Shown: positions 195 through 41,693 of the stretch, in pieces
Layout: each line of letters starts with the position of its first letter
How positions within the stretch are numbered: position 1 is the stretch's first letter
Assembly: GCF_009856865.1 (NCBI RefSeq)
Contig: NZ_WVUD01000015.1
Span: forward strand, 1-64,000
Reading direction: 5' to 3'
Length of the DNA: 64,000 nt
From: Solidesulfovibrio aerotolerans
GTDB lineage: Bacteria; Desulfobacterota; Desulfovibrionia; Desulfovibrionales; Desulfovibrionaceae
Made by a program: the position numbers and the translations under genes
The notes under the pieces: model-generated
What the model was told of the DNA's origin: nothing
Databases searched by the model: none
The model's input: only the letters and a program-made list of their open reading frames with translations

Positions 195-463
195 TAGGAT
201 TTAAAATATACAAAGCACCCATGGCGTTTGTAAACCGCAAAGTAAAATTCTAAACAATTTGCTGGATATTAATAACTGTAGCAAATTACTGAGTAAATTA
301 GCTTGCTTTCTGTAGGTCAGCAGTAGCATTTCCGGGCTGGCATGGTTTCCCGCTCTGGGGCTTGAGGGCGGCGAATCGCTGTGCTATTTTTACCTGTCAT
401 TTCGGGGAGGCACAGAGCTTTCCTGAACCGAGTCATGGAATTACACATAAACAATGGTTGCGT

Positions 464-2500
464 ATGAGTTTCATTCAAGACGACATATACCAGATGATTC
501 AGAGATCAGATAAGTTGAAAGATGATGACCGTCTGTCAATCTTTGAATACTTGTCGCAGAAATTTTCAATAATCCCCTTGCGCGGTGGATTTGCTTCTCC
601 AATAGAAGCTTCTGGTGATCCAGATGAAATGAAGCGAATGGCTAACAAGTTGAAAAGACCAATTGAAAGCGGTTGGGAAAAATGGTGCGAAACGATTCGC
701 TCGTTCAACCATCAAGATTTTAAAGCTGACAGGGCAGGAATAGCGTGTGGCCCAGCGAGTGGCGTGCTGGTCTTAGATGTTGATTACATTGATGAATTTT
801 GGAAAGTCCTTAAGTTCAATGGTATTGATCCCATGCTCCCATCTACTTTTGCCGTTAAATCCGGAGGAAGAGGTGATCGTTACCACTATTATTTTAGATA
901 TCCTAATGATGGTAAGAAATACTCCTGCCGATCTAAGGCCAAATGCTTTGACGTAAGAGGAACAGGAGGACAAGTAATCTGTCCCGGGTCTTTACACCCA
1001 GAGACTCAAAAGCCTTATGTTATTGCCACTAATGAAGATATTTTAGATGCTCCAAACTGGTTGCTCGAATATTCTTCAGGGGCACGAGATATTTTCACAG
1101 AAGATGATCAAGATAGACGTTCCAAAAAAAATTTACTTCCCGCCTCTCGAAATAAAGCTTTTGAAATAGAGACGTTAGAAGCTAATTCGGTTGATCTTGA
1201 TAGTCTTATTGCAGGATTGCCTATTTCTGAAGACATTAAGCAAAAGATCATGACGCCATATCTTCGGGGCACTAGATCAGAACCATCCTGGTCGGTTCTG
1301 CTTGGTCTGCTCAACGCTGGTGTTGATGAAAGGACAATCAGGTCTATCTACCAAAGCTATCCCATTGGTGAAAAGTCTAGGGAAAAATCTGATTGGTTTG
1401 AACGGGAAATTGAAGCAGCTAAGAAAACTATAGCTCAGAATCCAATAGGGGTTCATATGCAACTTGGTTTCTCTTCTGGGACGAATGGTTCTTCTTCTGA
1501 TTCTGAGTATGGTATTGTCAATGCGTTTGATGTGTTAACGGCGCAAACAAACTTTGAGTTTCTTATAGACAATTTCTGGCCTAAAGATGAGCCGTTGTTA
1601 ATCACTGGATATGGTGGGGCTGGTAAGTCAGTCCTGACCTTGCAAATAGCAATGGATCTGGTTTTCCCTCCAGCCAATGGGTTCTTAAATAAATACAAAG
1701 TACTACATGGAGGACATCGCGTCCTTTTTGTACAATCTGAAAATTCTTTAGTTGGAATGAAGCGAAGACTCGAGCTTATACGCGGCGCTTATGCTATCCC
1801 AGACGATGTTATTCGAGAGAAGCTTTTTTTCGTCGGTAGAAAAAAGGATATTCGTGCTACTGGCGATCTTGATAGTCCACGGTTTCAAGATGTAATCAAG
1901 AAACAGCATGATTTGATAAAATTCGATATTCTGGTGATAGACCCGCTCATAAGTTTTCACAGTAAGGATGAAAATTCAAATGACGAGATGCGTAGACTCT
2001 TGGACAATTTTTCTGACTTTTGTGAAAGTCTTAAGGTCTCGCCGTTAATCATACACCACCACGGAAAATTTAAGCAAGAAAGAGGAGTCGGTGGAGGACG
2101 CGGTGCGAGTGCTATAGGTGATTGGTCTCCTAACACCTGGGAACTCGAATACAAAGAAAAGGATAAGAAATTTAAGTTCATTCATAAGAAAGCTAGAAAT
2201 TTCATGTTAAACGATGATCTTTCACTTGAATTGAGCAACTTGAGGTTTGCTGTTAGCGTTCAGTCGGGTAGCTTAAAGAACGATACTACTTACTTTGTCA
2301 TCAAAGCTTTGCAAAACTTGAACGGAGTTGCTCAGACCCAAACTGTTTTGAAAAATGAAGTTGTCAATGTATACAAAGCGGAGAATCCAGGTAAAAGTAT
2401 TACTGCCGTGACTGCTGTCAAGTACATTAAGGATGCCGTTGGCAAGAAAGCTGTTAAAACCATCCATGGTGCGAAAGGATCAATATCCTATCAGCTTTGA
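464..2500 (+). CDS. prim-pol / RepA-like helicase fusion, island replication protein
   Basis: Two-domain replication protein. The N-terminal part (about residues 60-210 from this start) looks like a bifunctional primase-polymerase domain: an acidic DVD motif in LVLDVDYID, then HYYFRYP, then DVRGTGGQVICPGS. The C-terminal half is a RecA/RepA-like ATPase with Walker A (GYGGAGKS), Walker B (DILVIDPLISF) and a later HHHGK motif, as in hexameric RepA/AAA_25 helicases. Such fusions prime and unwind DNA for autonomous replication of plasmids, phages and integrated satellites. The frame is open from a TTG at 362, but ATG 464 fits the family start better; neither has a clear Shine-Dalgarno sequence. 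It is the only replication gene seen in island A and probably serves its excised form (inference). TTGCAAC repeats lie just downstream. Confidence 0.8.
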   Translation: MSFIQDDIYQMIQRSDKLKDDDRLSIFEYLSQKFSIIPLRGGFASPIEASGDPDEMKRMANKLKRPIESGWEKWCETIRSFNHQDFKADRAGIACGPASGVLVLDVDYIDEFWKVLKFNGIDPMLPSTFAVKSGGRGDRYHYYFRYPNDGKKYSCRSKAKCFDVRGTGGQVICPGSLHPETQKPYVIATNEDILDAPNWLLEYSSGARDIFTEDDQDRRSKKNLLPASRNKAFEIETLEANSVDLDSLIAGLPISEDIKQKIMTPYLRGTRSEPSWSVLLGLLNAGVDERTIRSIYQSYPIGEKSREKSDWFEREIEAAKKTIAQNPIGVHMQLGFSSGTNGSSSDSEYGIVNAFDVLTAQTNFEFLIDNFWPKDEPLLITGYGGAGKSVLTLQIAMDLVFPPANGFLNKYKVLHGGHRVLFVQSENSLVGMKRRLELIRGAYAIPDDVIREKLFFVGRKKDIRATGDLDSPRFQDVIKKQHDLIKFDILVIDPLISFHSKDENSNDEMRRLLDNFSDFCESLKVSPLIIHHHGKFKQERGVGGGRGASAIGDWSPNTWELEYKEKDKKFKFIHKKARNFMLNDDLSLELSNLRFAVSVQSGSLKNDTTYFVIKALQNLNGVAQTQTVLKNEVVNVYKAENPGKSITAVTAVKYIKDAVGKKAVKTIHGAKGSISYQL

Positions 2501-3816: not shown

Positions 3817-4707
3817 TTAGAAAATTAGACCGTCCTTGATCTGGAGTTCTGTAACCACCTTTTCCAAGGTGTTGTAGTACACTACTTGTGCTACTTGCCT
3901 ATATAGAACCCTTTTGGACCCGGTAAACTCATCCATCGTTAGCGATAGTCTGTCGTTCAAGAATTTTTCGAACACATCCATGTATGGATAATTGTAACGC
4001 GTGTACATATGTCCATTCTTTTTGTCCAGTTCCTCAGGAAAGTAAATGATATCTGTTTTGTTCCGTTCTTTCCGTTCAGGATTCCAAAATCTTACGACTC
4101 CTGTTATGGCATCGTTGAGCCAAGATTTAGAGTCACAGGAGAATGCTGGGCAGTTGGAAATCAGTTCGAAATCACTAATACCGAACAAATGCACCCTGAC
4201 TTTCCTTGTTTGGTGCAACCAGAATACCGGCGGGAATAAATTTTCCGGGATTAATCTCCCTTTACTTTGGCCGATGGCTATAAATTCCGGACAATCTTCC
4301 GTGTAGGACCAAGCTTCATGGTTTTTCAGGTTATGGATAACCGGTACGCCAACTACGTTTGCATTCTCTAGCTTGACCAATTCTTCGTAGTTGTTTGCGA
4401 ATCCTTGTGGTCCAAAGTTGAAATCAGGGCTGAACACCATTAGATAACCAGTTGGGTTCATCGAACAATGTACAGTGAATCGAGTGATGAGTTCACTTAC
4501 AGTAACGTCGAGATTCGAGAACATTGCGCTGAATGCTCCGTTGTCTAGAACAATACTGCTGATGATTGACTCAAATTCTTTGAGATATTCTTTGTACTTT
4601 CTGGGCATCCTAGCTGCCGTCCAAAGAATACTTAGCAAAATGTCGGGGCACCGTTTGAGTAGTTCCTGTAAGACATTTATATTGGGCGATGAGATAAACA
4701 CGCGCAT
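3817..4707 (-). CDS. TGT/DpdA-like TIM-barrel protein (island A copy)
   Basis: 296 aa, start supported by AAGGAG before ATG. Landmarks are VLDNGAFSA near residue 55, PVIHN near 125, IAIGQ near 145, VHLFGI near 175 and CDSKSW near 195. Their order resembles tRNA-guanine transglycosylases and the phage DpdA group, which insert 7-deazaguanines into DNA; the aspartates of DNGAF and CDSKSW would be the acid and nucleophile positions. This assignment is from motif pattern only. A clear paralog lies at 32085 in island B: both start MR[VI][FY]xSS and end with the same signature (LEK..TE.QI.DGL). The gene follows the helical protein at 4761 by 53 bp in the same direction, so the two form an operon found in both islands. 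No preQ0 synthesis genes are nearby. Confidence 0.55.
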   Translation of the reverse strand: MRVFISSPNINVLQELLKRCPDILLSILWTAARMPRKYKEYLKEFESIISSIVLDNGAFSAMFSNLDVTVSELITRFTVHCSMNPTGYLMVFSPDFNFGPQGFANNYEELVKLENANVVGVPVIHNLKNHEAWSYTEDCPEFIAIGQSKGRLIPENLFPPVFWLHQTRKVRVHLFGISDFELISNCPAFSCDSKSWLNDAITGVVRFWNPERKERNKTDIIYFPEELDKKNGHMYTRYNYPYMDVFEKFLNDRLSLTMDEFTGSKRVLYRQVAQVVYYNTLEKVVTELQIKDGLIF

Positions 4708-4723
4708 AATATACTCCTTGAGT

Positions 4724-4752
4724 GGCTCCCCCAGTACGTGACCAGGGGAGCC
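4724..4752 (-). promoter_or_regulatory. intercistronic hairpin before the TGT-like gene
   Basis: GGCTCCCC (4724-4731) pairs perfectly with GGGGAGCC (4745-4752) in the 53-bp gap between the two operon genes. No T-run follows on the minus strand. The AAGGAG ribosome site of the TGT-like gene lies a few bases downstream. It may stabilise or process the message, or attenuate the second gene. Confidence 0.45.
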
Positions 4753-4760
4753 TTTATGTG

Positions 4761-5909
4761 TTATGCAGCTACTTGCTTGGGCTTGCGCTTTAACTCTTCC
4801 TTCTTCTTGAGGATTTCGAGTTGCGCAATTAAGGCATCAATACGGTCAGTTTCGACAGGGGTTTCGTAGGAGTCGAGATTGATGATATCAATGACCGTCT
4901 CCTTCAACAGCTGCACAGCAACATTGATATCTTTTGGGCGCTGGGCGCGGGCCTTTGAAGAGCCTTCTTTGCTCCCAGGCTTCTTATGGGTTAACAGGTC
5001 ATTGCGGTTTTCAGGTTCATTGACCAACTCCAGCAGGTATTCGACTGGCTCCATGCCGGCGTCCTTGCGGTGTTTCATCTCGTCGATGTCCGCCGTTTCG
5101 ATCTTGATTCCGCTGCCGCAAACCATCCGAAGGGTTTGGAACGGAATCTCAAGTCCTTCACGGTTCAGCCGATGGCGGTAAATGGCAGCGTCGCAATTGG
5201 CTTTGAACTCGTACATTGGCATGTCGCTGTTAACGTTAATGTTGTCCCCAAGAAGTTTCATCACCGTCGCGATAGGCTTGGGATCCTTTTCCAGGTGGCA
5301 ATCCTTAACAATTGACGCGATCCGTACGAGGCGGTCAATGCCTAATTCCAGATGTTCCACGGCATCACCAAGAGAAGCCGCGCTCATATAACCTCGTAAC
5401 GTGCTGGGATGAATGTGCGGGTCCAAGCGTTCCATACGATATCGTGTCCAACCTTTGAGACCGCCTTTTTCCGCACATGTTTGAATTTGGGTGATGGTTG
5501 CCATTTCGCCGAGTGTGAGTGCAACAATACCTAACTGTCTTTGTGCCGCGGCGAAGACTGGCTGGAAACCGATGTTGGTTTCGACAATCTTCTTGTATTT
5601 GTCATCCAAGGAGAGGGTCTTAAATTCACCCGTTCGAATTTCATCCAAGAAGTCAACGGGGGTGATCTTTTTGGCCTTCACTTCTTCCAGAGTGTCAGGA
5701 ATACGTCCAATTCCACCAGTTGCGCTGTGCATGATGGTAACAGCTTCATCATCTAACTGGGCGCGAAACTGTTCATAGGATTGGGACTCGTTCGGTTGAC
5801 ACTTGGTGGGAACTGCGTGTCCGCGTGCATCGCCAGTTTTCGGTGTAGCACCAGCACCGCCAGTGCCACCAATTGGCAACTCAGATTTATGATCATGATC
5901 AGCTGACAT
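4761..5909 (-). CDS. DUF3102-like helical protein, partner of the TGT-like gene
   Basis: 382 aa, start supported by AAGGAG. The N-terminal 50 residues are low-complexity and Gly/Ala-rich. A mid region (about 135-200) with GLKGWTRYR and STLRGYMSAA resembles the DUF3102 pattern of phage and plasmid proteins that are thought to bind DNA. The rest is predicted mostly helical and ends in a Lys-rich tail. The central part aligns by eye with the protein at 32980-33894 in island B, which also directly precedes a TGT-like gene. No enzyme motif is visible. Conserved pairing suggests a DNA-binding or targeting role for the TGT-like partner (inference). Confidence 0.5.
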   Translation of the reverse strand: MSADHDHKSELPIGGTGGAGATPKTGDARGHAVPTKCQPNESQSYEQFRAQLDDEAVTIMHSATGGIGRIPDTLEEVKAKKITPVDFLDEIRTGEFKTLSLDDKYKKIVETNIGFQPVFAAAQRQLGIVALTLGEMATITQIQTCAEKGGLKGWTRYRMERLDPHIHPSTLRGYMSAASLGDAVEHLELGIDRLVRIASIVKDCHLEKDPKPIATVMKLLGDNINVNSDMPMYEFKANCDAAIYRHRLNREGLEIPFQTLRMVCGSGIKIETADIDEMKHRKDAGMEPVEYLLELVNEPENRNDLLTHKKPGSKEGSSKARAQRPKDINVAVQLLKETVIDIINLDSYETPVETDRIDALIAQLEILKKKEELKRKPKQVAA

Positions 5910-6320
5910 TTCTTACTCCTTGATCTTCCCAGTTAAGGGAGAGGGTGTCGCTTTGAAACTACTTCCCAGTGAAGTTTTTCGCAGCGCCGTTCTGCCTCTT
6001 ATAGTATCAAGGATCGTGCCAGGAAGTGTTGTCGGTTAACTTGCTAAAATAACACAAGTATTTTTTTATGAGCTTCCGAGGTGTTAAATATATCCGTCAT
6101 ACTAAACGGACGACCGTCGTATTTGACGGCCGTGTGGTTTTCATGTCATGCTAAATTCGCATGTGGGAGAGACTTAGGTGCGGCTGAGGGGTTGGTCAGC
6201 ATTGAGTCTATGGGGCAGAATTTTTTTGCCAAACTGAAAGGATTTGCGGTATGCACGTACTAGTCTGCGGGCCTGTAGAAAAACCAATGATTTCTATCAT
6301 GTTGGATAGATGGAGTACTT

Positions 6321-8141
6321 ATGGCTGGGCGTGAATGGTTAGTGCTTCCTGGGATGACCCAAGTTTTTCTCCGTTATCTATCTATTGCAAAAGAATATTT
6401 GTCTGGAAAATCAGCCATTCACAATAAACCATTAATGATAATAGGTGATTCTGGTGTCGGTAAGGGTCTATTTATTGAGTGTGCAAAGCAACTTTTCGAA
6501 TGCAGAGCTGAATCAGCTCCTTCTCTGCAAGCCGTTAAAAATGCCAGCCCTTTTATCAGAATTAATTGTGCATCATTTACAAAAGACTTAGCTGAATCCG
6601 AAATATTTGGACATGAGAAAGGTGCGTTTACAGGTGCAACTGAGAAGAAGAAAGGCATTGTCGAGGAGGCTGGCGGAGGTGTGTTGGTTTTAGATGAAAT
6701 AGGTGAACTTCCAGAATCTGTACAAGCAAAGATACTTATATTCATTGAAGAAGGAGAGTTTAGAAGGGTTGGTTCGAATAAAATAGAACGCTCGAATGTA
6801 TTTATTATTGGAACTACGAATCAAAAGCAGGGTAAATTTAGGGCTGATTTTTGGTATAGATTCTTTCCAATATTTATCCCGGCATTGCATGAACGTAGGC
6901 TTGATGTCCTCTACTATATTGCATTAAAGTATCCACTTATATTTAATCGGTTGACACCGCAGCATGCGTTGAGTTTGTTGGCGCATAATTGGCCTGGGAA
7001 TATTCGTGAACTCGAACGGGTCATTTCAATAATAATGTCTGAAGATTTGATGCGTGAATCACAGCCCCTGACCGGCGAGCATGTTCAAAATAAACCTATC
7101 CCTTTATTTTTTCCTGTGGACACAAGGCAAACATCTTTGGCTGAAATGTATCTTAGCCGTTTTTGTAGCGACTTGCTTGCTGCAGATTTTGATATCGAGT
7201 CTTTTAATTCGATAATATCATGTTATGGTTTGCAAGTCCCTTATTCTTTTTCTATCTCAGATGGATTAAAAAAAATCAAAAAAATTTATGCAGAATTAGA
7301 AAAAAAGCAAACTAGTCACTACTATTTTGGCAAAAAATCATTTTCTGAAAGATCTTTTACAAAACCAATTTTAGACTGGGAGTTGAATCGTAAATTTCTT
7401 GGGAAACCCCAAATCCTTGGACCTACGGATAAAGGATTCATTTTGTATTATTATCCTGATGGGTTCCAAAAAGAATACGACAATCACCCTATGCTTGATT
7501 TGATTCAAAAAATGCAAAACAACATAAACGATGAGGCAAGTTTCTATCAAAAAATAAAAATTTGTTTCGAAGAGAACATGCAGCGCCTTGGCCATTTGAA
7601 GAATGTAGCTGTAGTTTCTAGGGTAAATAAAATTGAGGAAATTGGTGTGTGTTTCTCGTGTATATGCAATTTTTTTTTGAAAAATAGTTCTTCTCATCTG
7701 AATGTATTCGATCAGGCGGAGGTTCACCTCGCCGGTTCTGATTCTTTTGGAAAAGTTCAAAAATCTATAATAACAGCTTTTGTTGATGCCGGCTTGGTTC
7801 CAGGAGCTCTTAAGTTTGCTTCCGGAAGAAAATTGATTTTTAAAAAAAAGTATCGAGTCGAAACAGATTGGGGTGAGTATGTTAAATCAGTGCTGCGGAA
7901 TGATGATACTCCCGGTGTTGCGTCAGGACAAGTTCAACCAGTAGAAAACCGCGTGGTTTGCGAATCAGTCTTATATAAATGTACTGAAGATGAACTGTTG
8001 CGCTCCTATTATAAATACTTACGCTCGAATTACGATACTGTTGTGCAAGTTTGTAGGCATGCTGGGCTTAACGAGTCAACATGTCGTAATAAACTCAGAG
8101 AATTTGGGTTGTTGCCGAAACAGATGAAGGAGGATAAATGA
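6321..8141 (+). CDS. sigma-54 activator lacking a sensor domain, long unknown C-terminal region
   Basis: 606 aa, start supported by GGAG seven bases upstream. The AAA+ domain begins almost at the N-terminus: Walker A GDSGVGKG (about 42-50), the sigma-54 contact loop GAFTGA (about 98-103), Walker B VLVLDEIGE (about 118-126) and NWPGNIRELER (about 228-238). All catalytic features are intact. There is no receiver, GAF or PAS domain in front. After residue about 260 comes some 270 aa of unrecognised sequence, then a Fis-like helix-turn-helix (NESTCRNKLREFGLLP) at the end. It could activate sigma-54 promoters of the island or host. Regulation may come through the unknown middle region. AT-rich codon use fits the island. 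Confidence 0.8.
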   Translation: MAGREWLVLPGMTQVFLRYLSIAKEYLSGKSAIHNKPLMIIGDSGVGKGLFIECAKQLFECRAESAPSLQAVKNASPFIRINCASFTKDLAESEIFGHEKGAFTGATEKKKGIVEEAGGGVLVLDEIGELPESVQAKILIFIEEGEFRRVGSNKIERSNVFIIGTTNQKQGKFRADFWYRFFPIFIPALHERRLDVLYYIALKYPLIFNRLTPQHALSLLAHNWPGNIRELERVISIIMSEDLMRESQPLTGEHVQNKPIPLFFPVDTRQTSLAEMYLSRFCSDLLAADFDIESFNSIISCYGLQVPYSFSISDGLKKIKKIYAELEKKQTSHYYFGKKSFSERSFTKPILDWELNRKFLGKPQILGPTDKGFILYYYPDGFQKEYDNHPMLDLIQKMQNNINDEASFYQKIKICFEENMQRLGHLKNVAVVSRVNKIEEIGVCFSCICNFFLKNSSSHLNVFDQAEVHLAGSDSFGKVQKSIITAFVDAGLVPGALKFASGRKLIFKKKYRVETDWGEYVKSVLRNDDTPGVASGQVQPVENRVVCESVLYKCTEDELLRSYYKYLRSNYDTVVQVCRHAGLNESTCRNKLREFGLLPKQMKEDK

Positions 8142-8721: not shown

Positions 8722-9111
8722 TCAGTCATCCTCGGGCAGCATAATCGTCAGCACTGGCTCAGCATTGTCACCAGGGCCGATGTGAGCGATGATATCAACG
8801 GTTTCTTTTTTATCTGGCCCCATCAGGAACGACACTTTGAAGTACACCCGATCTGTCCCTTTGCTGGACCGGGCGGCGAACATCGCCAGTGTCAGCAGAT
8901 CATGGAGTCGGCCAGCACTGGATTGCCCATAACTCCTGTCCAATCCGGTAGGAACTTCAATATATTGGTGGTAGAGGTTATCGGTGACGACAGTGTGGAC
9001 TTTGAACCCGGTTGCTTTGGCATCGGCGGTGATGTCAATTAGGACACCATCTTCGATAGCCTGTGCCCGGGTGTAGCTGTAGATGACGTTCCAGTCTTTA
9101 TCGGTGGTCAT
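8722..9111 (-). CDS. DUF6573-like protein (island A copy)
   Basis: 129 aa. It begins with an IYSYTRAQAIEDGVLIDIT signature near residue 10 that I associate with the DUF6573 family found on plasmids and phages; function unknown. It ends in an acidic PEDD tail. A close paralog, same length, is at 34562-34951 in island B. The start lies inside the end of the 75-aa gene (14-bp overlap), with GGAG nine bases before ATG, so translation is probably coupled. The pair is kept together in both islands, suggesting a backbone role in maintenance or control rather than cargo. Confidence 0.7.
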   Translation of the reverse strand: MTTDKDWNVIYSYTRAQAIEDGVLIDITADAKATGFKVHTVVTDNLYHQYIEVPTGLDRSYGQSSAGRLHDLLTLAMFAARSSKGTDRVYFKVSFLMGPDKKETVDIIAHIGPGDNAEPVLTIMLPEDD

Positions 9112-9360: not shown

Positions 9361-9562
9361 TGGACCAGTGGGGCGGTCACGGGAGTTTGGGATAGGCTGG
9401 GAATTGGACTGGACAAAGCTCTATGGAAATCGGACGTTGGTTGTAGGACGCGATTTCCTGGGATTTTGGCCCGGGGGGAACCCCAAGGCCCCGGCCATAG
9501 GAAAAGGCCCAGGAACGGGCCGGTAGAGAGCAGGGGAGGGGTGTCCGAGAGGAAATCCCAGT
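9361..9562 (+). repeat. GC-rich dispersed repeat R1
   Basis: First copy of a repeat family. Hallmarks are a left module with ATGGAAATCGGACGTTGG-like sequence, CTGGGATTTTGGCCCGGGG, and GGCCGGTAGAGAGCAGGGGA (9518-9537). CTGGGATTT on the left can pair with AAATCCCAG at the right end, and GGCCC-AGGAAC-GGGCC forms an inner hairpin. It separates the DUF6573 pair from the PAS gene. Confidence 0.75.
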
Positions 9563-10454: not shown

Positions 10455-10620
10455 TTGGCCCGGAAAAAGCCCTATTGAAATCGGACGTTGGAGTTATACT
10501 GGGAATTACGGGACTTTTGGCCCGGGGGGAGACAAAGGGGGGAGGCCATTGGAATAATTCCAGGAAAGGGGGCGTAGGTGCGTTGGGGGTGGGTGTTTAA
10601 ACTAAGATCCCAGCATCACA
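10455..10620 (+). repeat. GC-rich dispersed repeat R2
   Basis: It shares the left module (CCCTATTGAAATCGGACGTT) with R1 and R4, and the core GGGGGGAGACAAAGGGGGGA with R7. CTGGGA on the left can pair with TCCCAG at the right end. It lies directly upstream of the EAL-HDOD gene. Confidence 0.7.
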
Positions 10621-13907: not shown

Positions 13908-14360
13908 GGCGTGGCGTTGGACAAAGCCCTATGGAAATCGGAAGTTGCGTGTAGGATGCGATTTCCTGGGATTTTGACCCGGAGGGACACCCCAGGCCCC
14001 GCCCATTGGAAAAGGCCCAGGAATGGGCCGGTAGAGAGCAGGGGAGGGGTGTCTAGGGAAGAAGGCCAAGCCCAGATTTGCCCAAGGGAAGGGTTCCAGC
14101 TTTTTGCTCAGATAAATACTGTGACTTCGACGACTTTTGAAAAGTCCAGTTTACTGGAACTTTTGATTTTCAGCTGATGGTAAAAAATTATGCTTATCGG
14201 TACTGGGTAAGCGTTAACGGCGCGGGTATGGCATTTTCGACCAGAACGATGGTGTCGGATCGCAGGATCCTGTGAATTTTAAGACCCGTGATGGTGACAA
14301 TGTCACGGGAACTGGCCTGTTTCCTGGTCCTTGAGCATTGGGTACGCTGAATCGTGGCGT
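13908..14360 (+). repeat. GC-rich dispersed repeat R4 (long copy)
   Basis: The left part (13908-14090) closely matches R1, with GGCCGGTAGAGAGCAGGGGA at 14026-14045. The right part contains the inverted repeat TCCAGTTTACTGGA (14145-14158) also found beside R5, the GCAGGATCCTG module (about 14262) and CCCGTGA/TCACGGG arms (about 14284-14308). It separates the GGDEF block from the HTH and kinase block. Confidence 0.75.
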
Positions 14361-17041: not shown

Positions 17042-17300
17042 GTACCGTCCTAGCTTGTAGTAGATGAAGGTTTTTGACTTGGCGTAAATAGCCACAAGTC
17101 AGGTTTAATTCGGGAAATCACCAAAAAATAACAAATCCAGGCTTAAAATATTTTTTGCTGTAGAATACTTGCAGCTAAAATAAACATAAAAAGTTTAAAA
17201 AATCTGAAGCTTGTGTTGTAAAAATCTTGGTTTTTAACAAACATGCTCTGAATTTGTAAAAGAGTTTAGGTCAAGATAACGGTCAAGATGTAGATATGAG

Positions 17301-17762
17301 TCAGTAGGGTTTTATTTTAGAATTTAAAGAACGAGCAGATAAATTCGTTAAAAAATTCGCCAAGTCTTGCATTATTTTTTTATAATTTAATTCTAAAAAA
17401 TTGATTTCAAGGTCTTCAAGAAATGTCTCTGTGTTGTACAAGGCAATAAGGACGTTTTCTTTTCCGACCCTCTTGTACGCTTTGAGTAGCCGTGATTCGT
17501 GAAGAATAATTATATTTAGTAGGTAAATAGCTAAATAACTTTTATTGATTTGAGTGCGTTCTTCTGGAGTGCCAAGGAGTTTGATTCCAATGGACTGAAT
17601 GGCTTCTGTTAAAGCTGGATTAGTCTCAATTATTCTGGAAATTTCCATGTGAGCTCTCTTCCTAAGGTGGGTTGGTATTCTATTCATATCAGGAGAGGTG
17701 GAGTAGTTCCTACCCCCACCTCCCTGATTGTAATCGTTAGAATTTTTCGAAATCGTTGTCAT
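17301..17762 (-). CDS. 153-aa helical protein after the chemoreceptor gene
   Basis: The first ATG overlaps the end of the chemoreceptor gene by 26 bp, consistent with translational coupling; no independent ribosome site is seen at the first ATG. After a polar N-terminus ([10 protein letters not shown]) it is helical ([20 protein letters not shown]). No domain is recognised. The other receptor in this island is also followed by a small helical protein (21137), so each may be an accessory of its receptor, although I cannot align the two convincingly. Confidence 0.55.
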
Positions 17763-23757: not shown

Positions 23758-24052
23758 AACAAAAAATCCTTTTAGGAGCGTACTGTATTGATCTGAGATT
23801 AGAGCCACAGTCTGGTAATTTTTTACCACAATTTTGGGACCGAGGGCAAGTAATATCTATAATTAATTAATGTGAAAGTACTAGTCAAATTTGGCATATG
23901 TCAAATTTAACACAAGTTCCAACATCACTGTTTCCAAAATTTCCCCTTGACCTCCCAGCCCGTGGGAGTGTAGTCCCCTCCGACCAACGACGAGCCAACA
24001 AGCGCCAACGTCTTTGGTACCCGAAAATTTCTGGGGAATGGAAAATTTAGGG

Positions 24053-24081
24053 TTGACTTCGGGAAGAGTTCGGAATAGATA
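24053..24081 (+). promoter_or_regulatory. intact promoter of the truncated tRNA
   Basis: TTGACT (24053-24058) and TAGATA (24076-24081) are 17 bp apart, identical to the promoter of the complete tRNA-Val. Confidence 0.7.
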
Positions 24082-24103
24082 TCACCTTCCCTGATTTGAA
24101 TTT

Positions 24104-24140
24104 AGGAGCGTAGCTCAGGGGGAGAGCACTTGCTTGACAC
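24104..24140 (+). pseudogene. truncated tRNA-Val, 5' half only
   Basis: It matches the first 37 bases of tRNA-Val: acceptor 5' strand AGGAGCG, D arm and anticodon stem with GAC. At 24141 the sequence changes to ACCACAAGCAGG and the 3' half is missing. It marks the junction of the two islands. The promoter is intact, so a chimeric transcript could run to the terminator at 24196. Confidence 0.88.
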
Positions 24141-24195
24141 ACCACAAGCAGGATTTAAACCCCTAAAATCTTTAAAGAAATCCCTATGAAAAAGT

Positions 24196-25260: not shown

Positions 25261-26385
25261 CTAGGCAATAGATAGTCCAGGTAGTAAACGTACTGCTCTT
25301 TCCTTTTCTCCTTCCATGTAATGGTAATAGGTATCAGCAGTCATCTTGACGGTGGAGTGACCCATCATCTTGGATACAGCTGCTAGATCAGCTCCTTTGC
25401 TCAACAAGGTTGTTGCAAAGAGATGCCTAAGATCATACATTCTTGTGGGATAGGTAATCCCAGCACGTTGGCAAGCATTTTTAAATGCTTTTCGAATGGT
25501 CGTTAAGCTTCTGCCCATGTACTCAATTACATAGCCAGAGATCGAACTTTTTCTGACCTCTTCCATTCGTTTTAGAAAGTCAGGATTGATTGGAACAGTT
25601 CGATATGTTTTTGTTTTGCTTGCATAGATACGGATAGTTCCATCTTTGAAATCTATGTCCTGCCATCTCAAAGATAGAAGTTCAGATTCCCCAGGACGAG
25701 TCCCTAGATTAAAGCAGACTTCCATTGCCCATTGTAAATGGGGTTCAGCATGTGCTATGATCTTCTTTACGTCTTCAACAGTTAATTTCAAGTCCCATGG
25801 TTGTACCTTTGGCTTCTTCCAGTGTTTCAAGGGATTGACCGAAGTAAACCCATTGTCGATACCGAAGTTGAAGATAAAACTTACATAGTCACAGTATTTA
25901 TTGACTGTATACTGTGAACGAACCTTGCCAGTACGGTTACTTACTCCTTTGAAGTGTAAGATGAATGGAATCATGTCATCTTGATAGGTTAAGGAGTTAA
26001 TTGGTTTGTCACCAAGCACCGGGACGAATACATAATTCAGAAGATGATCAATGTTTTTGATATGCTTCTCAGTTCTCCCTGAAGCACGCATGTGATCGAG
26101 GTATTTTTTTCCCAGAACTGCCAGGGTCATGCCGGAGGGTTGCGGAGTGATGGCCTGGTTGGCCGCCATATCCCCTGTACTGGCCGTATTAGCCGCCAGA
26201 ACGGCCCCGGCAACCGAATCCGGATCAGGGATCGGAAGCCCCTGCTCAAGGGCATCAAGGACCGCAGAGTTGAAAGCAGCGGCACGAGCTTGAGCGAGAT
26301 CACCTCTCCCAAACGACTTATCATGCCGTTTACCATCTTGATTCCAATAAACCATCCATCGGCTATCACGTTGATAAATACCCAT
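25261..26385 (-). CDS. int: tyrosine-recombinase integrase of island B
   Basis: 374 aa, start supported by GGAG. It opens with an Arm-type DNA-binding region (GIYQRDSRWMVYWNQDGKRH), then a SAM-like core-binding domain (about 110-195) and a catalytic domain. Catalytic residues are visible: Arg in LGTRPGESELLSLRW, Arg in YDLRHLFAT, His in MMGHSTVKMT and Tyr in DTYYHY. The first catalytic-box His is Tyr, a common variant. It lies within 1.2 kb of the left island junction, the expected place for the enzyme that integrates at tRNA-Val. A Gly/Ala-rich linker (about 55-85) of higher GC content is unusual. Confidence 0.92.
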   Translation of the reverse strand: MGIYQRDSRWMVYWNQDGKRHDKSFGRGDLAQARAAAFNSAVLDALEQGLPIPDPDSVAGAVLAANTASTGDMAANQAITPQPSGMTLAVLGKKYLDHMRASGRTEKHIKNIDHLLNYVFVPVLGDKPINSLTYQDDMIPFILHFKGVSNRTGKVRSQYTVNKYCDYVSFIFNFGIDNGFTSVNPLKHWKKPKVQPWDLKLTVEDVKKIIAHAEPHLQWAMEVCFNLGTRPGESELLSLRWQDIDFKDGTIRIYASKTKTYRTVPINPDFLKRMEEVRKSSISGYVIEYMGRSLTTIRKAFKNACQRAGITYPTRMYDLRHLFATTLLSKGADLAAVSKMMGHSTVKMTADTYYHYMEGEKERAVRLLPGLSIA

Positions 26386-26509: not shown

Positions 26510-27067
26510 TTAAATGGTATTCAGCAGAATTTCTTCAACTTCCTCCTCTTGCACTCCTAGATAACGCCTAGTTATGGAAGGACTGCTATGATTTAAACGT
26601 TTAGCTAAAACTTCCCAGCTAACTCCAAATGTTTTTCGTTGATGGTAACACCAAGTCTTTCTAAGACTATGTGCTCCAAAGTTGCCTATAAGATTTATCT
26701 CATCTGCCCATCTTTGGACCATCTGCGTAACGGCATAGGTGGTTATCGGGTAGTTTTTACCCTTCCTGCTTTTAAACAGGAAGTGATCATCAACTAGGTC
26801 AATGGTTTGAAAATATTCGTTCATAACGGCAAAGATCTCTTTGTTCATGATGAACACGTTATCCTTGCCAGTTTTCTTCTCCTTTATGGAGATTCTCTCT
26901 CCCAAGTCGCATGTTTTGACATCACTGATCTTAAGAGCAAGCATATCTTGCACTCTCAGGCCAGAATTGACTCCCATTGTGAAAAGTAGTCGATCACGAG
27001 GGTTGTTGCTTAAGAGCTTCTTAATGCTCTTAATATTTTTCAACTCAATGATTGGGTCTACCTTCAT
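26510..27067 (-). CDS. catalytic-domain-only tyrosine recombinase
   Basis: 185 aa from ATG 27067, which has AGGAGGA upstream. The whole protein is a tyrosine-recombinase catalytic domain: Arg in NSGLRVQDMLALKI, HSLRKTW (His and Arg), LNHSSPSITRRYLG (second His and Tyr). There is no core-binding or arm-binding domain, as in small integrases and resolvases of phages and plasmids. It is distinct from the full-length integrase 120 bp away. Possible roles are multimer resolution, inversion or cargo recombination; the sequence does not decide. Confidence 0.82.
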   Translation of the reverse strand: MKVDPIIELKNIKSIKKLLSNNPRDRLLFTMGVNSGLRVQDMLALKISDVKTCDLGERISIKEKKTGKDNVFIMNKEIFAVMNEYFQTIDLVDDHFLFKSRKGKNYPITTYAVTQMVQRWADEINLIGNFGAHSLRKTWCYHQRKTFGVSWEVLAKRLNHSSPSITRRYLGVQEEEVEEILLNTI

Positions 27068-27354
27068 AACTAGGTTCCTCCTAAGTTCGAATTTAGTTGT
27101 AGGATTATATAATCGTACATTCAAAACAGGGGTTCAGCAGGACCTCCCAGATACACTGGAACGATCCTGTTGGAATTCAAAGACTTATGGAGCCTCTAAC
27201 TCCCAATGTACGTTTTTACGGAAAATCGTACATTGGTATATTTTTGAATATCTATATTCTTTTGCTTAAAATCGCATAAGAAGATTCAAGATTGAGCGAA
27301 TATATCTTGCTGATTTATTTGTAAATCGTATTGAAATTAAAGACGAAACAAAGA

Positions 27355-29257: not shown

Positions 29258-30319
29258 TTATTTAATATTGTCTATTATGTTTTTAATATCATTCTTATAC
29301 TTGTATACTGTACTTTTGGATAAATTACTAAACCTTATTATGTTATCTATGTTTATAATTTTATTATTTAATTTTAAATAGTCAATAGTTTGCTTGATTG
29401 TCTCTAGTGTACTGCTTCTTCTCGCCTCATGTGTATGCTTAGCTCCAAGTGACTGATGATCTTTAATAAATAATTTTTTCTCTTCAGGAGAGTCAAGTGA
29501 TAGTTCTCTTTTCTTTAAACCCATGATACCGATATTTTTGGACCAATTTTTAAAGTTTTTATCAAGACGTTTAGTCCAAGTGTACTTAGTTATCGATCTT
29601 GCTATGCTTAGAACTTCATTTCTTAGAAAATCTTTGTTTTGTCCACCATACCAGATATTTTCAGCAGTATATCTTAAACAGATAGATTGGACTTCATTTT
29701 TAAATAAATCATAGTCATTAAAATCTTTTACAATCTTATAAACTAATTTTCTGCAACGATGGAATACTTGCATGTGACGACCTTCGAAGAACCATTCATC
29801 ATCGTCGTTGTACTTGATGGAGGGAAGATTAACAAACTCAGCAAGATATTTTAGATCATAAGACCTATTTGACCAAAAAACACTCCACATTGGAGAGAAT
29901 GGGTTTTTAATTCCAAACTGGGTAAAACCCTTATCAGCTTCAAGTTTATTTTGGTATCCTGCTGTCACAGCATTGAAATATCGGATTGCTTTCCAGCTAA
30001 TGTTTATAGTTCCTTTTTCTAACGGCAGAAGTACTGGATTATCAAGCTCATAGAAGTATTGGGCGTGTCGATTCTTTTTGTTCATAATAATTAAAGTTGG
30101 TTCAGGAAGGATATCATTTTCCCAAGCAAATGCAGCCATATCATAATCTAGGTCCAGAGATATGTAGCCACGTTTTTGAGTAGGAAGCTGAATGTAATTT
30201 GCCGTTGTAATAATATCTTGTTTCTTGCCAATTCTACTTAGAGATTTATTTTTCCCCCAATATGGGTTGTCAGGAAGAAAGTCATAGAATCTTTGCTTTG
30301 GATCATTCGATTTTATCAT
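29258..30319 (-). CDS. rep: plasmid-type Replicase (Rep) of island B
   Basis: 353 aa. N-terminal Replicase family domain: RFYDFLPDNPYWGKNKSLSR, an acidic SLDLDYDMAAFAW segment, HAQYFYEL and NPFSPMWSVFW. A C-terminal helix-turn-helix-like region (FSNLSKSTVYKYKNDIKN) follows a PriCT-like stretch. This is the type of initiator-primase found on ColE2-like theta plasmids. The start ATG has GGTGG upstream, and that site is buried in a leader hairpin (30321-30368). It indicates that island B can replicate autonomously when excised (inference). It differs completely from the island A replication protein. Confidence 0.82.
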   Translation of the reverse strand: MIKSNDPKQRFYDFLPDNPYWGKNKSLSRIGKKQDIITTANYIQLPTQKRGYISLDLDYDMAAFAWENDILPEPTLIIMNKKNRHAQYFYELDNPVLLPLEKGTINISWKAIRYFNAVTAGYQNKLEADKGFTQFGIKNPFSPMWSVFWSNRSYDLKYLAEFVNLPSIKYNDDDEWFFEGRHMQVFHRCRKLVYKIVKDFNDYDLFKNEVQSICLRYTAENIWYGGQNKDFLRNEVLSIARSITKYTWTKRLDKNFKNWSKNIGIMGLKKRELSLDSPEEKKLFIKDHQSLGAKHTHEARRSSTLETIKQTIDYLKLNNKIINIDNIIRFSNLSKSTVYKYKNDIKNIIDNIK

Positions 30320-30862: not shown

Positions 30863-31801
30863 CTATTTCAACCAAATCACAGCCTGATCGTCAACCTTGT
30901 AACCATCGCCGTTCGCGTAGACCAATATTTTCAATTTATCGACACTGTTCAATTTCTTTGCAACAGCAGTAGTCATATTGATAAGCTCTTCCACGTAAAA
31001 CATATGTAAAGTCGAAGTTCTAATCATGTCAAATTGAGCAGCAATACTTTTATGCCCATTACTTTCAAGAATTTGCATGCAGCGAGTTATTCCAGGTCCA
31101 CGAGGGTTCAACGGTTCTGTCCAGATAGATTCAGGGTCACATTCTAAAACAGAAGAAAGCATTTGTTCAAAGCTTGCAGTATCATTTCCAATTCCAGGCA
31201 ATACCGGGCAAATCATTCCAAAGGTTTTAATCCCCAGGGAGTGGGCTTTTATCATAGTATCAATACGTTCAGATATCATGGAAGCGTTTGGTTCTATCAA
31301 CTTTATGATGTTTTCTTTTGAAACTGGACTTGTAATGCTTAATCCAATTCTAATGCGGTCTCCAAATTGCTTGATGATATCAAAATCATTTTGAACGGCA
31401 GCATTCTTTGTCAGGATTCTAACTTTGCACTTCGATTTGACAAGAACTTGTTCTAGAATCTTTCTTCCAAGATTATGTTTCTGTGCTTCTGGTGACCAAC
31501 AGTCAGTTATTGTGCTGATCATGACCATATCTTCTGGACCTAAATTGCTTATCTGTCTACCAACTCTAATTGCTGTCCATGGATCAACTATAGAATTACC
31601 TTGTTCAAAATATTGAAAAGAAGAAACACCAATATTTCGAAAAAGAGCGTGGGTTCGTAAAAGAGAAGGCGTAGAGCAATAAGCACAACCATGTCCACAG
31701 ATTAACCCTCCATTTATAGCATGGGTTGCTAAATATTTTTTCTTGAATTCATCCGACTTTGTGACACCAACACTTCGTTGAAACTCTTTGATTTCATTCA
31801 T
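30863..31801 (-). CDS. radical SAM protein of the SplB / DNA repair photolyase group
   Basis: About 312 aa; the second ATG (31801) has better spacing from AGG than the first (31807). The radical SAM cluster motif is CGHGCAYC near residue 35, whose three cysteines bind the 4Fe-4S cluster. Later landmarks TDCWSPEAQ, RILTKNAAVQ, RIGLSITSP and PVLPGIGND follow the order seen in COG1533 (spore photoproduct lyase-like) proteins. The substrate of most members is unknown; DNA lesion repair and base or peptide modification are options. The next gene upstream is the TGT-like protein on the same strand, 284 bp away behind a terminator, so they are separate units. No island A equivalent. Confidence 0.78.
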   Translation of the reverse strand: MNEIKEFQRSVGVTKSDEFKKKYLATHAINGGLICGHGCAYCSTPSLLRTHALFRNIGVSSFQYFEQGNSIVDPWTAIRVGRQISNLGPEDMVMISTITDCWSPEAQKHNLGRKILEQVLVKSKCKVRILTKNAAVQNDFDIIKQFGDRIRIGLSITSPVSKENIIKLIEPNASMISERIDTMIKAHSLGIKTFGMICPVLPGIGNDTASFEQMLSSVLECDPESIWTEPLNPRGPGITRCMQILESNGHKSIAAQFDMIRTSTLHMFYVEELINMTTAVAKKLNSVDKLKILVYANGDGYKVDDQAVIWLK

Positions 31802-31967
31802 AATCATCCTGCTTTTGTTTCTAATTGGTTTGGTTGTTTTACCATACGACAGGGATTTTACACGAAATATTTACATTCACATCTTGTAATATCTATAATT
31901 TTGTGTTTCTTTAGTGCAGAAAAATGTCAATGAACGCAAAAGATATGCTTATAGGCAAATAAAACAG

Positions 31968-32084: not shown

Positions 32085-32978
32085 TCACCAAGTATCAAAT
32101 ACTAATCCATCAGATATTTGCCGTTCAGTAATTTTTTTCTCCAAACTGCTGAAGTAAAAAGAATTTGCAACAGTTCTTAAAATAGTTTCTGTAGCCAGAT
32201 CATTCTTAGTTAAACCAAGATTCGTGTAGATGTAGTCTTGGTACTCTTCGAGTATATTATACTTTTTGTATTTATGACCATCAATAAAATCATCGTTTGT
32301 ATTGCCGTTTCTGTCTTCAGGCAAAAAAGAGAATGTAACTTCTTCTTTCATAAGTTCAGAATAAAATATAACTCTACCAACACTCACCCATCGAGCAAAA
32401 GACGAACAATCAGTAGACCAAGCTTTCAATCCAAGCAATCTTTTGTAACTACCATATGCAAAAACATGGACTTTAAAATTATGGGTATAAAATAATTCGA
32501 CAACATCTTTCAAATGTTGTGGGTCTTTGCTTAAAGTTGAACCAATAGCGATTTTATCATAGTAGCCTTCAAACGATAGAAAGTGGTTAATTTCTTGCTT
32601 TGTAAAACTATGTATAACTGGAACTGGTCTATGTCCATTGTCTTCCAAATATATTTGGTTGGCCCAGTTGATTTCTAATGGATCACCATCAAATTTTTCG
32701 TCATAGTTAAAATAAAAATTGAATAAATGTTTCCGCCTTGTTAAAAACTTCGAGTATATTTTGACGTTACTTTTGTGCTTTAATGTGCCTTGATTTAAAG
32801 CCCATACTCCAGAGTCAAGTATTAATGAGTTTATATTTTTAGGTTTTTCTTCGATCATCCTCAATGTCTCTGGGCCATCAGTCCGATAGGATCTTAAGAC
32901 ATTAATTTTGGACTCAGGGCTTCTCGAATTAAGTTTACTCAAAATATCAGCTGTTATTGATGATTGATAAATTCGCAT
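32085..32978 (-). CDS. TGT/DpdA-like TIM-barrel protein (island B copy)
   Basis: 297 aa from ATG 32978, one base after the stop of the preceding gene; this start gives MRIYQSS, matching MRVFISS of the island A copy (296 aa). Motifs in order: LILDSGVWALNQG (about 55), PVPVIHS (about 125), KIAIGST (about 145), VHVFAYG (about 170), STDCSSFARW (about 190). The pattern is that of the TGT fold; the aspartates of LDSG and STDCSS are the candidate catalytic residues. Family members exchange guanine for 7-deazaguanine in tRNA or, in phages, DNA. Substrate not decided here. Assignment rests on motif order only. Confidence 0.55.
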   Translation of the reverse strand: MRIYQSSITADILSKLNSRSPESKINVLRSYRTDGPETLRMIEEKPKNINSLILDSGVWALNQGTLKHKSNVKIYSKFLTRRKHLFNFYFNYDEKFDGDPLEINWANQIYLEDNGHRPVPVIHSFTKQEINHFLSFEGYYDKIAIGSTLSKDPQHLKDVVELFYTHNFKVHVFAYGSYKRLLGLKAWSTDCSSFARWVSVGRVIFYSELMKEEVTFSFLPEDRNGNTNDDFIDGHKYKKYNILEEYQDYIYTNLGLTKNDLATETILRTVANSFYFSSLEKKITERQISDGLVFDTW

Positions 32979-32979
32979 G

Positions 32980-33894
32980 CTATTTTTCCCAATCAAGACC
33001 TTCTTCTTTACATTTTATTTTAAAAAGTTCTGTTATGTAGTGTGCACCATCTTCTAAGAGATAAAGTTCGATTGATTTCATGGGATATCTTTGATCAATT
33101 GCTTGCTTTCCGAGTTTTGTAAGGTTTTCTAGAAGCAAAGCTAGTTCTCGGCATCTTGCAATTTGTTGTTTTCTAGGTTTTGTTTCAGGAGTTTCAAAAT
33201 CAATCATATTTAGAAGTGTTACTGTTGGATTTTTTGATTCGTACAATTTATCTAACAGCTTTTTGTCAAATTTTAATCCAACTTCTACTGCATCTGCTAT
33301 ATGCTCAAGCTGTATATTTATTTTTTTCTTTTTAAATAATTTTTCGTTAATTATGAATGCTTCAACTAGTATTGTGAACATTTCAAAGTCATCTTCTTTG
33401 TCAAGGTCAAGGGTGTATGAAATGTTTTGAAATATTTTATCGATTGGGTCGGTAAACTTATGAGTGTCAACTGCTTGAGCCAGTGCCTTAATTCTTTTCC
33501 AGCCCAGGTTGTAGTACTTTTCGATGTCTTTCAGTTTGGCTACTTTTTGTCGTATTTTTCGTTCTTCAGTGCTTAAATTAAAATGTGTTATTGCAAATAC
33601 TTCCCATGTTCCGTATGTGCATGTTTGTTTTGCTTTCAATATTATCTTGCCTGATTGTATTCTTAAGATTGCTTGCCAGATGTCGTCTTTATGTGAATCC
33701 AGGCGTATGCGTATTTCAAGGTCTGTATAGGCTCGTTTTAACTTCTCTAAGTTTTCTTCTGAATCTGATAATTTCTCCTTGATTAAAATGTCAATAGCTT
33801 CAACTTCAGGGCATTCATTTGGGTGTTTTCTTTGGTTTTGGTTGGGTTCTTGTTGATTTGCTAGTACGGGCAAGTTGTTATCATTCTCTATCAT
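32980..33894 (-). CDS. DUF3102-like helical protein, partner of the TGT-like gene (island B copy)
   Basis: 304 aa from the ATG with GGAG six bases upstream (33894). The region about 80-145 (ILKAKQTCTYGTWEVF then YNLGWKRIKALAQAV) resembles DUF3102. The remainder is helical and aligns by eye with 4761-5909 of island A, including a TLLNMIDFETPE / YLLELVNEPEN block. The stop is separated from the TGT-like start by one base, so the two are tightly coupled. The N-terminal tail is Asn/Gln-rich. Confidence 0.5.
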   Translation of the reverse strand: MIENDNNLPVLANQQEPNQNQRKHPNECPEVEAIDILIKEKLSDSEENLEKLKRAYTDLEIRIRLDSHKDDIWQAILRIQSGKIILKAKQTCTYGTWEVFAITHFNLSTEERKIRQKVAKLKDIEKYYNLGWKRIKALAQAVDTHKFTDPIDKIFQNISYTLDLDKEDDFEMFTILVEAFIINEKLFKKKKINIQLEHIADAVEVGLKFDKKLLDKLYESKNPTVTLLNMIDFETPETKPRKQQIARCRELALLLENLTKLGKQAIDQRYPMKSIELYLLEDGAHYITELFKIKCKEEGLDWEK

Positions 33895-33973
33895 GTTCAT
33901 CTCCAAAAAATAATCAGTAATTTAAGGTAGTTAGCATAAAAAGACGAACTTTCCGACGATCTGTTCTAACCAG

Positions 33974-34561: not shown

Positions 34562-34951
34562 CTAATCGTCCTCGTGCAGCATCAAGGTCAGAACTGGCTC
34601 CCCCTGATCACCAGGGCCAATGTGCGCGATGACCTCGACTGTCTCCGTTTTCCCAGGGGCCATGAGGAAAGCAACCCGGACTGTCGCTCGATCCGCGCCG
34701 GCATGATTCTTTCTGGCAGCGCACAGCACAAGGAACAGGAGGTCGTGGAGGCGGCCAGCTGTGGACTGACCCTCGCCTTCGAGTCCGGTGGGTGGTTCGA
34801 CGTACCCGTGAAAGAGGGTAGCGGTGACGACGGTATTCACCTTGAACCCGACTCCCCTGGCAGCATCGGTGACATCAATGAGAACTCCGTCCTCGATTGC
34901 TTGTTGCCGTGTATAAGAATAAATAAGATTCCATTCGTTATCGGTGGTCAT
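34562..34951 (-). CDS. DUF6573-like protein (island B copy)
   Basis: 129 aa, paralog of the protein at 8722: same IYSYTRQQAIEDGVLIDVT opening, same GRLHDLL centre, same acidic end. It overlaps the 75-aa gene by 14 bp as in island A. Base composition is noticeably GC-richer than the neighbouring genes, as is the 51-aa gene upstream, which may reflect a different source or stronger expression. Function unknown. Confidence 0.7.
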   Translation of the reverse strand: MTTDNEWNLIYSYTRQQAIEDGVLIDVTDAARGVGFKVNTVVTATLFHGYVEPPTGLEGEGQSTAGRLHDLLFLVLCAARKNHAGADRATVRVAFLMAPGKTETVEVIAHIGPGDQGEPVLTLMLHEDD

Positions 34952-35534: not shown

Positions 35535-35720
35535 CAGGTCACGGTGAAGGTGGAGTGGTTGGGACAGCGAGCACTGGAAACGGACATTGGGCTTAAACTG
35601 GGATTCCCTAGGGTTTTGGCCCAGGGGGAGACAAAGGGGGGAGGCCACTGGGAAAGCCCCAGGAAGGGGGCCTAGGGCGCGAATTAGCGGGATGTCCGGG
35701 TGGGTAGGCTAAGTCGGGAT
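35535..35720 (+). repeat. GC-rich dispersed repeat R7
   Basis: It shares CAGGGGGAGACAAAGGGGGG and the AGGCCACTGGGAAAG core with R2, and GCGCGAATTAGCG with R3 (GGGCGTGAATTAGCG). It separates the backbone genes from the flagellin gene. Confidence 0.7.
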
Positions 35721-41244: not shown

Positions 41245-41410
41245 AGAATAGCTCCTTCGAACTCTCAAATTTTTTTAATAAAGTTATATTTTTTCGTTCA
41301 ATATGCAACGCATTTCTGAACGAAACAAGTTCCTCCCAATAACTCAATTATTCCGAATGATCAAGGCCATGTTCACGGGTTATTTTTTGGTGTATCCCGC
41401 CAAATTTATC

Positions 41411-41655
41411 TCATGTCAAATTTAACATAAGCACCACCTGCACTTTTCCTAAAATTTCCCCTTGACCTCCCAGCCCGTGGGAGTGTAGTTCCCTCCGACC
41501 AACGACGAGCCAACAAGCGCCAACGTCTTTGGTACCCGAAAATTTCTGGGGAATGGAAAATTTCGGGTTGACTTCGGGAAGAGTTTGGAATAGATATCCC
41601 CTTCCCTGATTGAAATTTAGGAGCGTAGCTCAGGGGGAGAGCACTTGCTTGACAC
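41411..41655. repeat. right copy of the tRNA-leader direct repeat (attachment junction)
   Basis: Partner of 23896-24140. It includes the promoter and 5' half of the complete tRNA-Val and ends in the anticodon loop. Confidence 0.85.
41568..41596 (+). promoter_or_regulatory. tRNA-Val promoter
   Basis: TTGACT (41568-41573) and TAGATA (41591-41596) with 17-bp spacing, about 22 bp before the mature tRNA 5' end. Confidence 0.75.
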
Positions 41656-41693
41656 GCAAGGGGTCGGGAGTTCAAATCTCCCCGTTCCTACCA
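41619..41693 (+). tRNA. tRNA-Val (anticodon GAC)
   Basis: 75 bases including encoded CCA. Acceptor AGGAGCG pairs with CGTTCCT (one G-T), the D arm has GCTC/GAGC, the anticodon arm is CTTGC-TTGACAC-GCAAG with GAC, and the T arm is GGGAG-TTCAAAT-CTCCC. It is the integration target: its 5' half lies in the direct repeat and the 3' half only here. Island DNA lies to the left, chromosomal genes to the right. Confidence 0.97.

Follow-up and report, generated by a model that had tools for sequence, protein, structure and literature searches.

The first 64 kb of contig C52 of the Solidesulfovibrio aerotolerans genome (4.6 Mb in 161 contigs), the whole stretch analysed and here called the window, carry in two islands, A and B, diverged copies of one gene pair: an enzyme whose membership of the phage DpdA lineage is supported by sequence comparison, and a linked partner protein. 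Such pairs sit in mobile elements with integrase genes in sulfate-reducing bacteria, and DNA modification and self-marking by the pair are plausible. In the fuller reading that we prefer and hold with middling confidence, the pair would be a DNA-modification module of the mobile element, in which the DpdA enzyme, directed or loaded by its partner, uses preQ0 from the host to set a protective mark. The features concerned are collected in Table 1.

Table 1. Features of the two islands and of related loci. Positions refer to the window unless a locus number (L) precedes them.
Feature	Position	Strand	Evidence or remark
Island A replication protein (Prim-Pol, AAA)	362..2500	+	PF09250 E 2.7e-21, PF13481 E 2.5e-23
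Island A DpdA-lineage transglycosylase, 296 aa	3817..4707	-	phrog_887 E 1.1e-17
Island A partner protein, 382 aa, helical core and DUF3102-like segment	4761..5909	-	adjacent upstream in family
Sigma-54 (-24/-12)-like site TGGCACGATCCTTGAT	6006..6021	-	about 100 nt upstream of island A partner, same strand
Sigma-54-type AAA+ protein, divergent from the pair	6321..8141	+	PF00158 E 1.1e-40, residues 32-181
Island A DUF6573-type gene	8722..9111	-	same cluster (c5) as 34562-34951; 66% identical to island B copy
Element B left end: region upstream of tRNA-Val and its 5' half	23886..24143	+	direct repeat
Element B tyrosine integrase	25261..26385	-	PF00589 E 8.5e-29
Small second tyrosine recombinase, element-family marker	26510..27124	-	PF00589 E 8e-21
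Island B replicase	29258..30319	-	PF03090 E 4.7e-23
Island B radical SAM protein, downstream of the pair	30863..31807	-	PF04055 E 4.3e-6, SPL 5.7e-4, NF033668 5.7e-21, all under cut-offs
Island B DpdA-lineage transglycosylase	32085..32996 from TTG	-	phrog_887 E 7.4e-15
Island B partner, 308 aa from TTG	32980..33906	-	iterated profile E 9.4e-56
Island B DUF6573 protein	34562..34951	-	PF20213 E 5.6e-22
Element B right end: second repeat copy into intact tRNA-Val (41619-41693)	41401..41693	+	direct repeat
Longer TGT-like genes	L136:5504-6847 (own genome, C139); L141:5638-7062; L143:10374-11687; L151:16330-17832; also L171-L179

The enzyme and its place in the DpdA lineage

A first-pass annotation of the window had proposed that a two-gene operon of a TGT/DpdA-like enzyme and a DUF3102-like protein occurs in both islands. 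The genes lie where, and in the order in which, it placed them, the end at 33894 that it gave for the island B pair being one of two later ATGs of the partner gene (33900 and 33894). The conserved start of the island B enzyme, MRIYQ, corresponds to an ATG at 32978, and in island A 53 nt separate the two genes. Identity between the two enzymes is 25% across 304 alignment columns (E 2e-21). The two partners align directly over 122 columns at 20% identity with an E value of 0.029, which is barely a match, and it takes an iterated profile to connect them.

In hhalign comparisons, a profile built from 29 enzymes matches the DpdA of phage 9g with a probability of 98.9 (E 2e-17), whereas the host's own Tgt is not aligned (E 0.37). 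PHROG 887 (queuine tRNA-ribosyltransferase) matches both window enzymes. Pfam and NCBIfam hold no family at E <= 1 for either of them (P0001 and P0003); the Pfam TGT model (PF01702) is likewise unmatched by the window enzymes and, in a search of their own genome, matches on contig C95 only. A tblastn search of phages returned 96 records, among them 9g, Seurat and Vid5, all below 60% identity and none above 80% coverage; the 40 of the 96 matches that were listed are named queuine or queuosine tRNA-ribosyltransferase, DpdA, 7-deazaguanosine inserting enzyme or hypothetical, or are unannotated. Viral contigs gave no match with P0001 alone, seven distant loci with A3 and none with A4. Neither the enzyme nor the island A partner had a match in plasmids, and the latter had none in phages.

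Four residues, D55, D95, H173 and D192, are invariant in all 43 relatives, one of which is a fragment. We take D55, D95 and D192 to be D102, D156 and D280 of Tgt, an assignment made by motif reading without superposition. The CxCxxC motif, the zinc site of tRNA-guanine transglycosylase, is found in none of the 43 relatives and is present in the host Tgt sequence. H173 aligns with H196 of the 9g DpdA, and an equivalent of this histidine is absent from DpdA2 according to the sections of PMC6884629 consulted here.

The predicted fold of the enzyme is a TGT barrel. The AlphaFold (AF2) model of the island A protein, for which the input was a 12-sequence alignment including viral DpdA-like proteins, has a pLDDT of 82.3 and a pTM of 0.84. 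On re-examination of Foldseek candidates, it superposes on the Tgt of Z. mobilis (6ygk) with a Z value of 17.6 (rmsd 3.6, 261 aligned) and on the DNA preQ0 insertase DpdA (7ui4) with a Z value of 17.0 (rmsd 3.6, 266 aligned). These values are tied, so the fold alone separates neither DpdA from Tgt nor a DNA from an RNA substrate. In the PDB ranking given by Foldseek itself aldolases come first, and in its viral ranking many proteins bear the name queuine or queuosine tRNA-ribosyltransferase. Searched against solved sequences, the enzyme profile finds no TGT, its best matches being TIR proteins (E 0.012); the link to TGT therefore runs through the DpdA sequences and the fold. Thus, the earlier view of a TGT/DpdA-like enzyme, for which the TIM barrel and the TGT aspartates had been named as the check, is borne out by sequence, predicted fold and invariant residues: the barrel is predicted, the aspartates are invariant and the reading is not refuted.

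The linked partner

An iterated profile seeded with the island A partner recovers 44 ORFs at 41 of 44 loci. Upstream of the enzyme and within strict distance limits lie 39 of these ORFs, and the other five, which are split, overlapping or decayed copies, are also beside an enzyme. The spacing between the two genes is short (median 56.5 nt). The 14 genomes of the genus hold 30 enzymes and as many partners, the two numbers agreeing in each genome, with the pair in nine genomes and in up to six copies per genome; left out of this count are one weak enzyme row, which belongs to a longer family, and one row that stems from a split partner. The genome of the window has five enzyme copies, in pairs on C52 (two), C78, C87 and C114. 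Because of these five copies and the equal numbers in each genome of the genus, chance pairing is excluded. The search for co-occurrence that the first-pass annotation had suggested thus finds the two genes in step, genome by genome, and the operon is conserved more widely than it had noted.

The distance matrices of the two genes, compared over 40 loci, correlate with r 0.915 over 780 pairs (the maximum of 1000 permutations is 0.146) and with 0.70 over the 750 pairs below 60% identity. These matched distances may reflect co-inheritance only. Over the same 40 loci the partner evolves faster, with a mean identity of 18.6% versus 31.7% for the enzyme.

The enzyme is found in 17 of 198 relatives, the genome of the window included, and in five of 395 genomes sampled from the phylum. 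The partner, too, is found in five genomes of the phylum draw, and four genomes (G000, G098, G410 and G453) have both. The fifth enzyme genome, G523, has no partner by profile at its locus (L132), where the gene upstream is weakly partner-like (score 0.5). At another locus (L131) there is a piece of a partner at the contig edge (E 3.6e-4), which an earlier profile count had missed, and the enzyme of L133 belongs to the longer family. Strict pairing everywhere, an idea we had entertained, is weakened by G214. Three distant homologues of the partner (E 4.5e-14 to 6.4e-17) occur in this genome, which belongs to another family and lies outside the five enzyme genomes; no short or long enzyme lies within the 14-kb stretches around these homologues. 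One of them is 1.9 kb from a gene that appears D5-like by eye, a replication gene.

Further observations concern the same genome. One distant homologue (L186:5710-6609) has a DUF3102-like segment by eye, and about 3 kb away lies a 412-aa protein with TGT-like motifs, also by eye (L186:9725-10963). Neither has a Pfam match passing the cut-off, and the 412-aa protein has no PHROG. Another of the homologues is beside a DUF1848 protein (E 7.3e-73).

The earlier description of the partner as DUF3102-like is weakly supported. The Pfam model, PF11300, finds nothing in the genome of the window, and Pfam returns one weak unrelated family for one of the two window partners and nothing for the other; NCBIfam and PADLOC have no match for either. 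A comparison of 30 partners with known families gave 33 families, all of them weak (best E 0.0014), and DUF3102 is absent from the 25 of these 33 that were inspected, as is any ParB-like ATPase. One segment of the partner profile, however, aligns with two DUF3102 proteins from the same taxonomic order (P 0.0033 and 0.0015, HHalign probability 10 and 17%), and both score better than all 300 control proteins, the best of which reaches 0.0082. The likeness is thus weak overall. The AF2 model of the partner, made from four sequences for residues 60-382 of the island A protein, is helical and poor (mean pLDDT 58.6), with more confidence in its middle region, where most of model residues 131-240 have a pLDDT of about 80-89, and it has no fold match. 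Given the lack of a convincing family, the poor model and the missing fold match, DNA binding by the partner hangs on one weakly matching segment.

Mobile elements, cargo and control

A 255-nt direct repeat marks the two ends of element B (23886-24140 and 41401-41655, 93%), and from these bounds we read the element as an insertion of about 17.5 kb, apparently in tandem with element A, the left end of which we read as lying off the contig. Insertion at a tRNA gene is demonstrated for island B only. Beyond it the tRNA setting is thin: a tRNA is present at eight of the 29 scanned loci, and at four of the 29 (L037, L050, L051 and L055) an integrase gene lies within 100 nt of one. The gene clusters present at 17 or more of 40 loci comprise the enzyme, the partner, two tyrosine recombinases, a replication protein, the DUF6573 protein and two small proteins, one of them weakly MazE-like and the other, of 75 aa, without a Pfam match. 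Among these clusters, for which single members were annotated and part of the neighbours scanned, there is no nuclease, DpdC or restriction gene.

The small second recombinase, with 53 matches in 11 of the 14 genus genomes, serves as a marker of the element backbone. We had considered the pair an essential part of this backbone, an idea rejected by the count in the four least fragmented genomes (G004, G005, G008 and G010): of their 20 backbone recombinase genes, eight have a short enzyme no more than 6.2 kb away, three have a longer TGT-like gene no more than 15 kb away and nine are by neither. No match to the partner profile was obtained at 20 further backbone loci, four of them shorter than 5 kb, which argues that the partner is no general maintenance gene.

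The longer TGT-like proteins (about 435-500 aa, with the motifs DSGGYS, FSLD, AIGGMV, HFLG and TYD) form a second family, related to the short one over 68 columns (Prob 85.7, E 5.5e-6) and present in 11 of the 198 relatives, the genome of the window included. They occur at four backbone-recombinase loci and at nine further loci (L171-L179); in L136 and L141 the gene lies beyond the DUF6573 gene and so may belong to a neighbouring element. Immediately upstream of the longer gene, seven of 13 loci have a member of one family of about 250 aa, which the gene of L172 joins weakly (E 0.009), two have another gene and at four none was found. Profile and PHROG searches reveal no known relative of this family. 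By eye its members had resembled a sliding clamp, and the clamp gene of 9g adjoins dpdA. The idea was dropped: one member has no PDB match, the family profile reaches E 0.39 or worse with no clamp among its matches, there is no PHROG, and the comparison with the 9g clamp gives E 0.2.

Several other genes of these islands deserve mention. A radical SAM gene with kinship to the SPL/PA0069 type recurs near short or long TGT-like genes (window 30863-31807, L141:7120-8058, L136 at 10853, L037, L044, L045 and L070), and its product could act on the same DNA base. The low-GC islands of the window also carry a hybrid histidine kinase, two chemoreceptors, a secretin and, by eye, a flagellin-like gene (14945-17095, 17737-19743, 21622-23829, 35875-37386 and 38763-40940), a cargo that is unusual for small integrative elements. 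Degenerate repeats of about 80-136 nt are spread across the islands (9410-9545, 10461-10596, 13918-14053, 20690-20770 and 35600-35680). A pair-less element encodes a single-subunit, T7-like RNA polymerase (L145:6781-8640; PF00940, E 6.5e-71).

In island A the pair is preceded by a sigma-54-like site and, divergently, by a gene for a sigma-54-type protein whose AAA+ domain begins near residue 32. This activator family is beside the pair in eight loci and is also found in the pair-less L144. Within 400 nt upstream of the partner, a site scoring at least 10 of 12 is found at seven of the eight activator loci versus two of the 33 without an activator (Fisher 1.2e-5), a comparison in which the cut-off was picked after the scores were known and the eight loci include two near-duplicate pairs (L044/L045 and L046/L048). 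The eighth locus, L039, has a site with a score of 9. Island A has an imperfect -12 element (TTGAT, not TTGC), the distance of the sites from the start varies from 16 to 112 nt, and across the whole window such sites occur at chance level (37 versus 36 expected). The presence of the activator beside some pairs suggests induction.

What the pair may do

In the reading that we prefer, the small enzyme would exchange guanine in DNA, rather than in RNA, for a 7-deazaguanine, most likely preQ0 supplied by the queuosine pathway of the host; the partner would bind DNA or the enzyme and direct or load the enzyme onto the element; and the resulting mark would shield the DNA of the element from restriction, above all when it is excised and replicating. 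The host has one standard Tgt (C95), a QueC (C20) and a weaker QueC match (C106), and there is no QueC match on the contigs carrying its five pairs. The precursor is therefore probably made by the host, and preQ0 would be the base inserted. In this respect the pairs differ from 9g and Vid5, which carry preQ0 genes beside dpdA; for phages without such genes, a host precursor is suggested in the sections of PMC6884629 consulted. The same sections report that phage CAjan depends on dpdA both to have the base in its DNA and to resist restriction enzymes. By this precedent, one would expect the pair to yield a 7-deazaguanine in DNA and to confer protection from restriction.

Known systems resemble the pair in part. 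The window enzymes share with DpdA of the 9g type the sequence lineage, a length of about 300 aa (317 in 9g) and the conserved histidine and aspartates, but they are only about 20% identical to the 9g protein, lie beside integrases in bacterial genomes, and come with a linked partner and in several diverged copies per genome. No partner of DpdA is named in the portions of the CAjan and 9g studies consulted. The bacterial Dpd system, which comprises DpdA, DpdB and others, also joins a TGT-like DNA enzyme to a second protein, but its solved DpdA (7ui4, 413 aa) is longer than the window enzyme, and the window partners have no match to the ParB-like ATPase DpdB in Pfam, NCBIfam or PADLOC. As far as the excerpts of PMC12839542 go, bacterial DpdA works with DpdB, which may be dispensable in some Dpd clusters, and BREX-related systems likewise combine a TGT with an unusual partner, a STAND NTPase; the two window partners, by contrast, have no NTPase match in Pfam. 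Among the open-licence papers listed on DpdA and 7-deazaguanine DNA, DUF3102 and genomic islands, no such pair appears in the titles or the beginnings of the abstracts. The analogy with DpdB, the linkage and the rate of evolution together lead us to see in the partner a putative targeting or loading subunit.

Three other explanations have to be weighed against this. The enzyme might modify RNA, either tRNA or a transcript of the element, with the partner as an RNA-binding or regulatory subunit, as the predicted TGT fold it shares with bacterial Tgt and the position of island B, and of the integrases at four of 29 loci, at or near tRNA genes would suggest; tRNA is, moreover, the substrate of Tgt enzymes. 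We nevertheless find this unlikely, since the enzyme profile aligns with phage DpdA but not with the host Tgt, the Pfam TGT model and, in all 43 relatives, CxCxxC are missing, and the host already has a separate, standard Tgt. It is also conceivable that the pair serves defence or offence, as part of a system in which marked DNA lets a nuclease tell incoming DNA apart, as in Dpd islands. DpdA is central to Dpd restriction-modification in the excerpts of PMC12839542, and the several diverged pairs per genome, together with the activator beside some of them, would fit, but the four enzyme and partner proteins of the window have no PADLOC match and the clusters at 17 or more loci, annotated as described above, include no nuclease, which makes this improbable in our view.

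The last alternative separates the two genes, leaving the enzyme to act alone as in phages and making the partner a maintenance protein of the element, for partition or copy control, that shares its operon. Its DUF3102-like segment, the replication gene near the pair in many loci and the partner homologues of G214, which have no short enzyme and one of which is close to the D5-like gene, all point this way. Against it stand the 20 further backbone loci without a partner, the equal numbers in the genus and the close spacing of the two genes, and we give it little credence. A DNA-modification module of the mobile element remains the reading we favour.

A bolder version of it, which we regard as doubtful, is a two-part DNA transglycosylase whose fast-evolving partner would be an exchangeable address subunit: the partner of each element would guide DpdA to the sequences of that element, so that co-resident elements mark themselves separately. 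As the longer family has its own upstream gene in or near similar elements, a TGT plus an address protein would then be a recurrent design. If the favoured reading is true, 7-deazaguanine DNA modification would reach integrative elements, beyond phages and Dpd islands, and DpdA-type modification would gain an uncharacterised linked partner. With one enzyme, one partner and a host precursor, the pair would offer a compact system for site choice by a DNA base exchanger.
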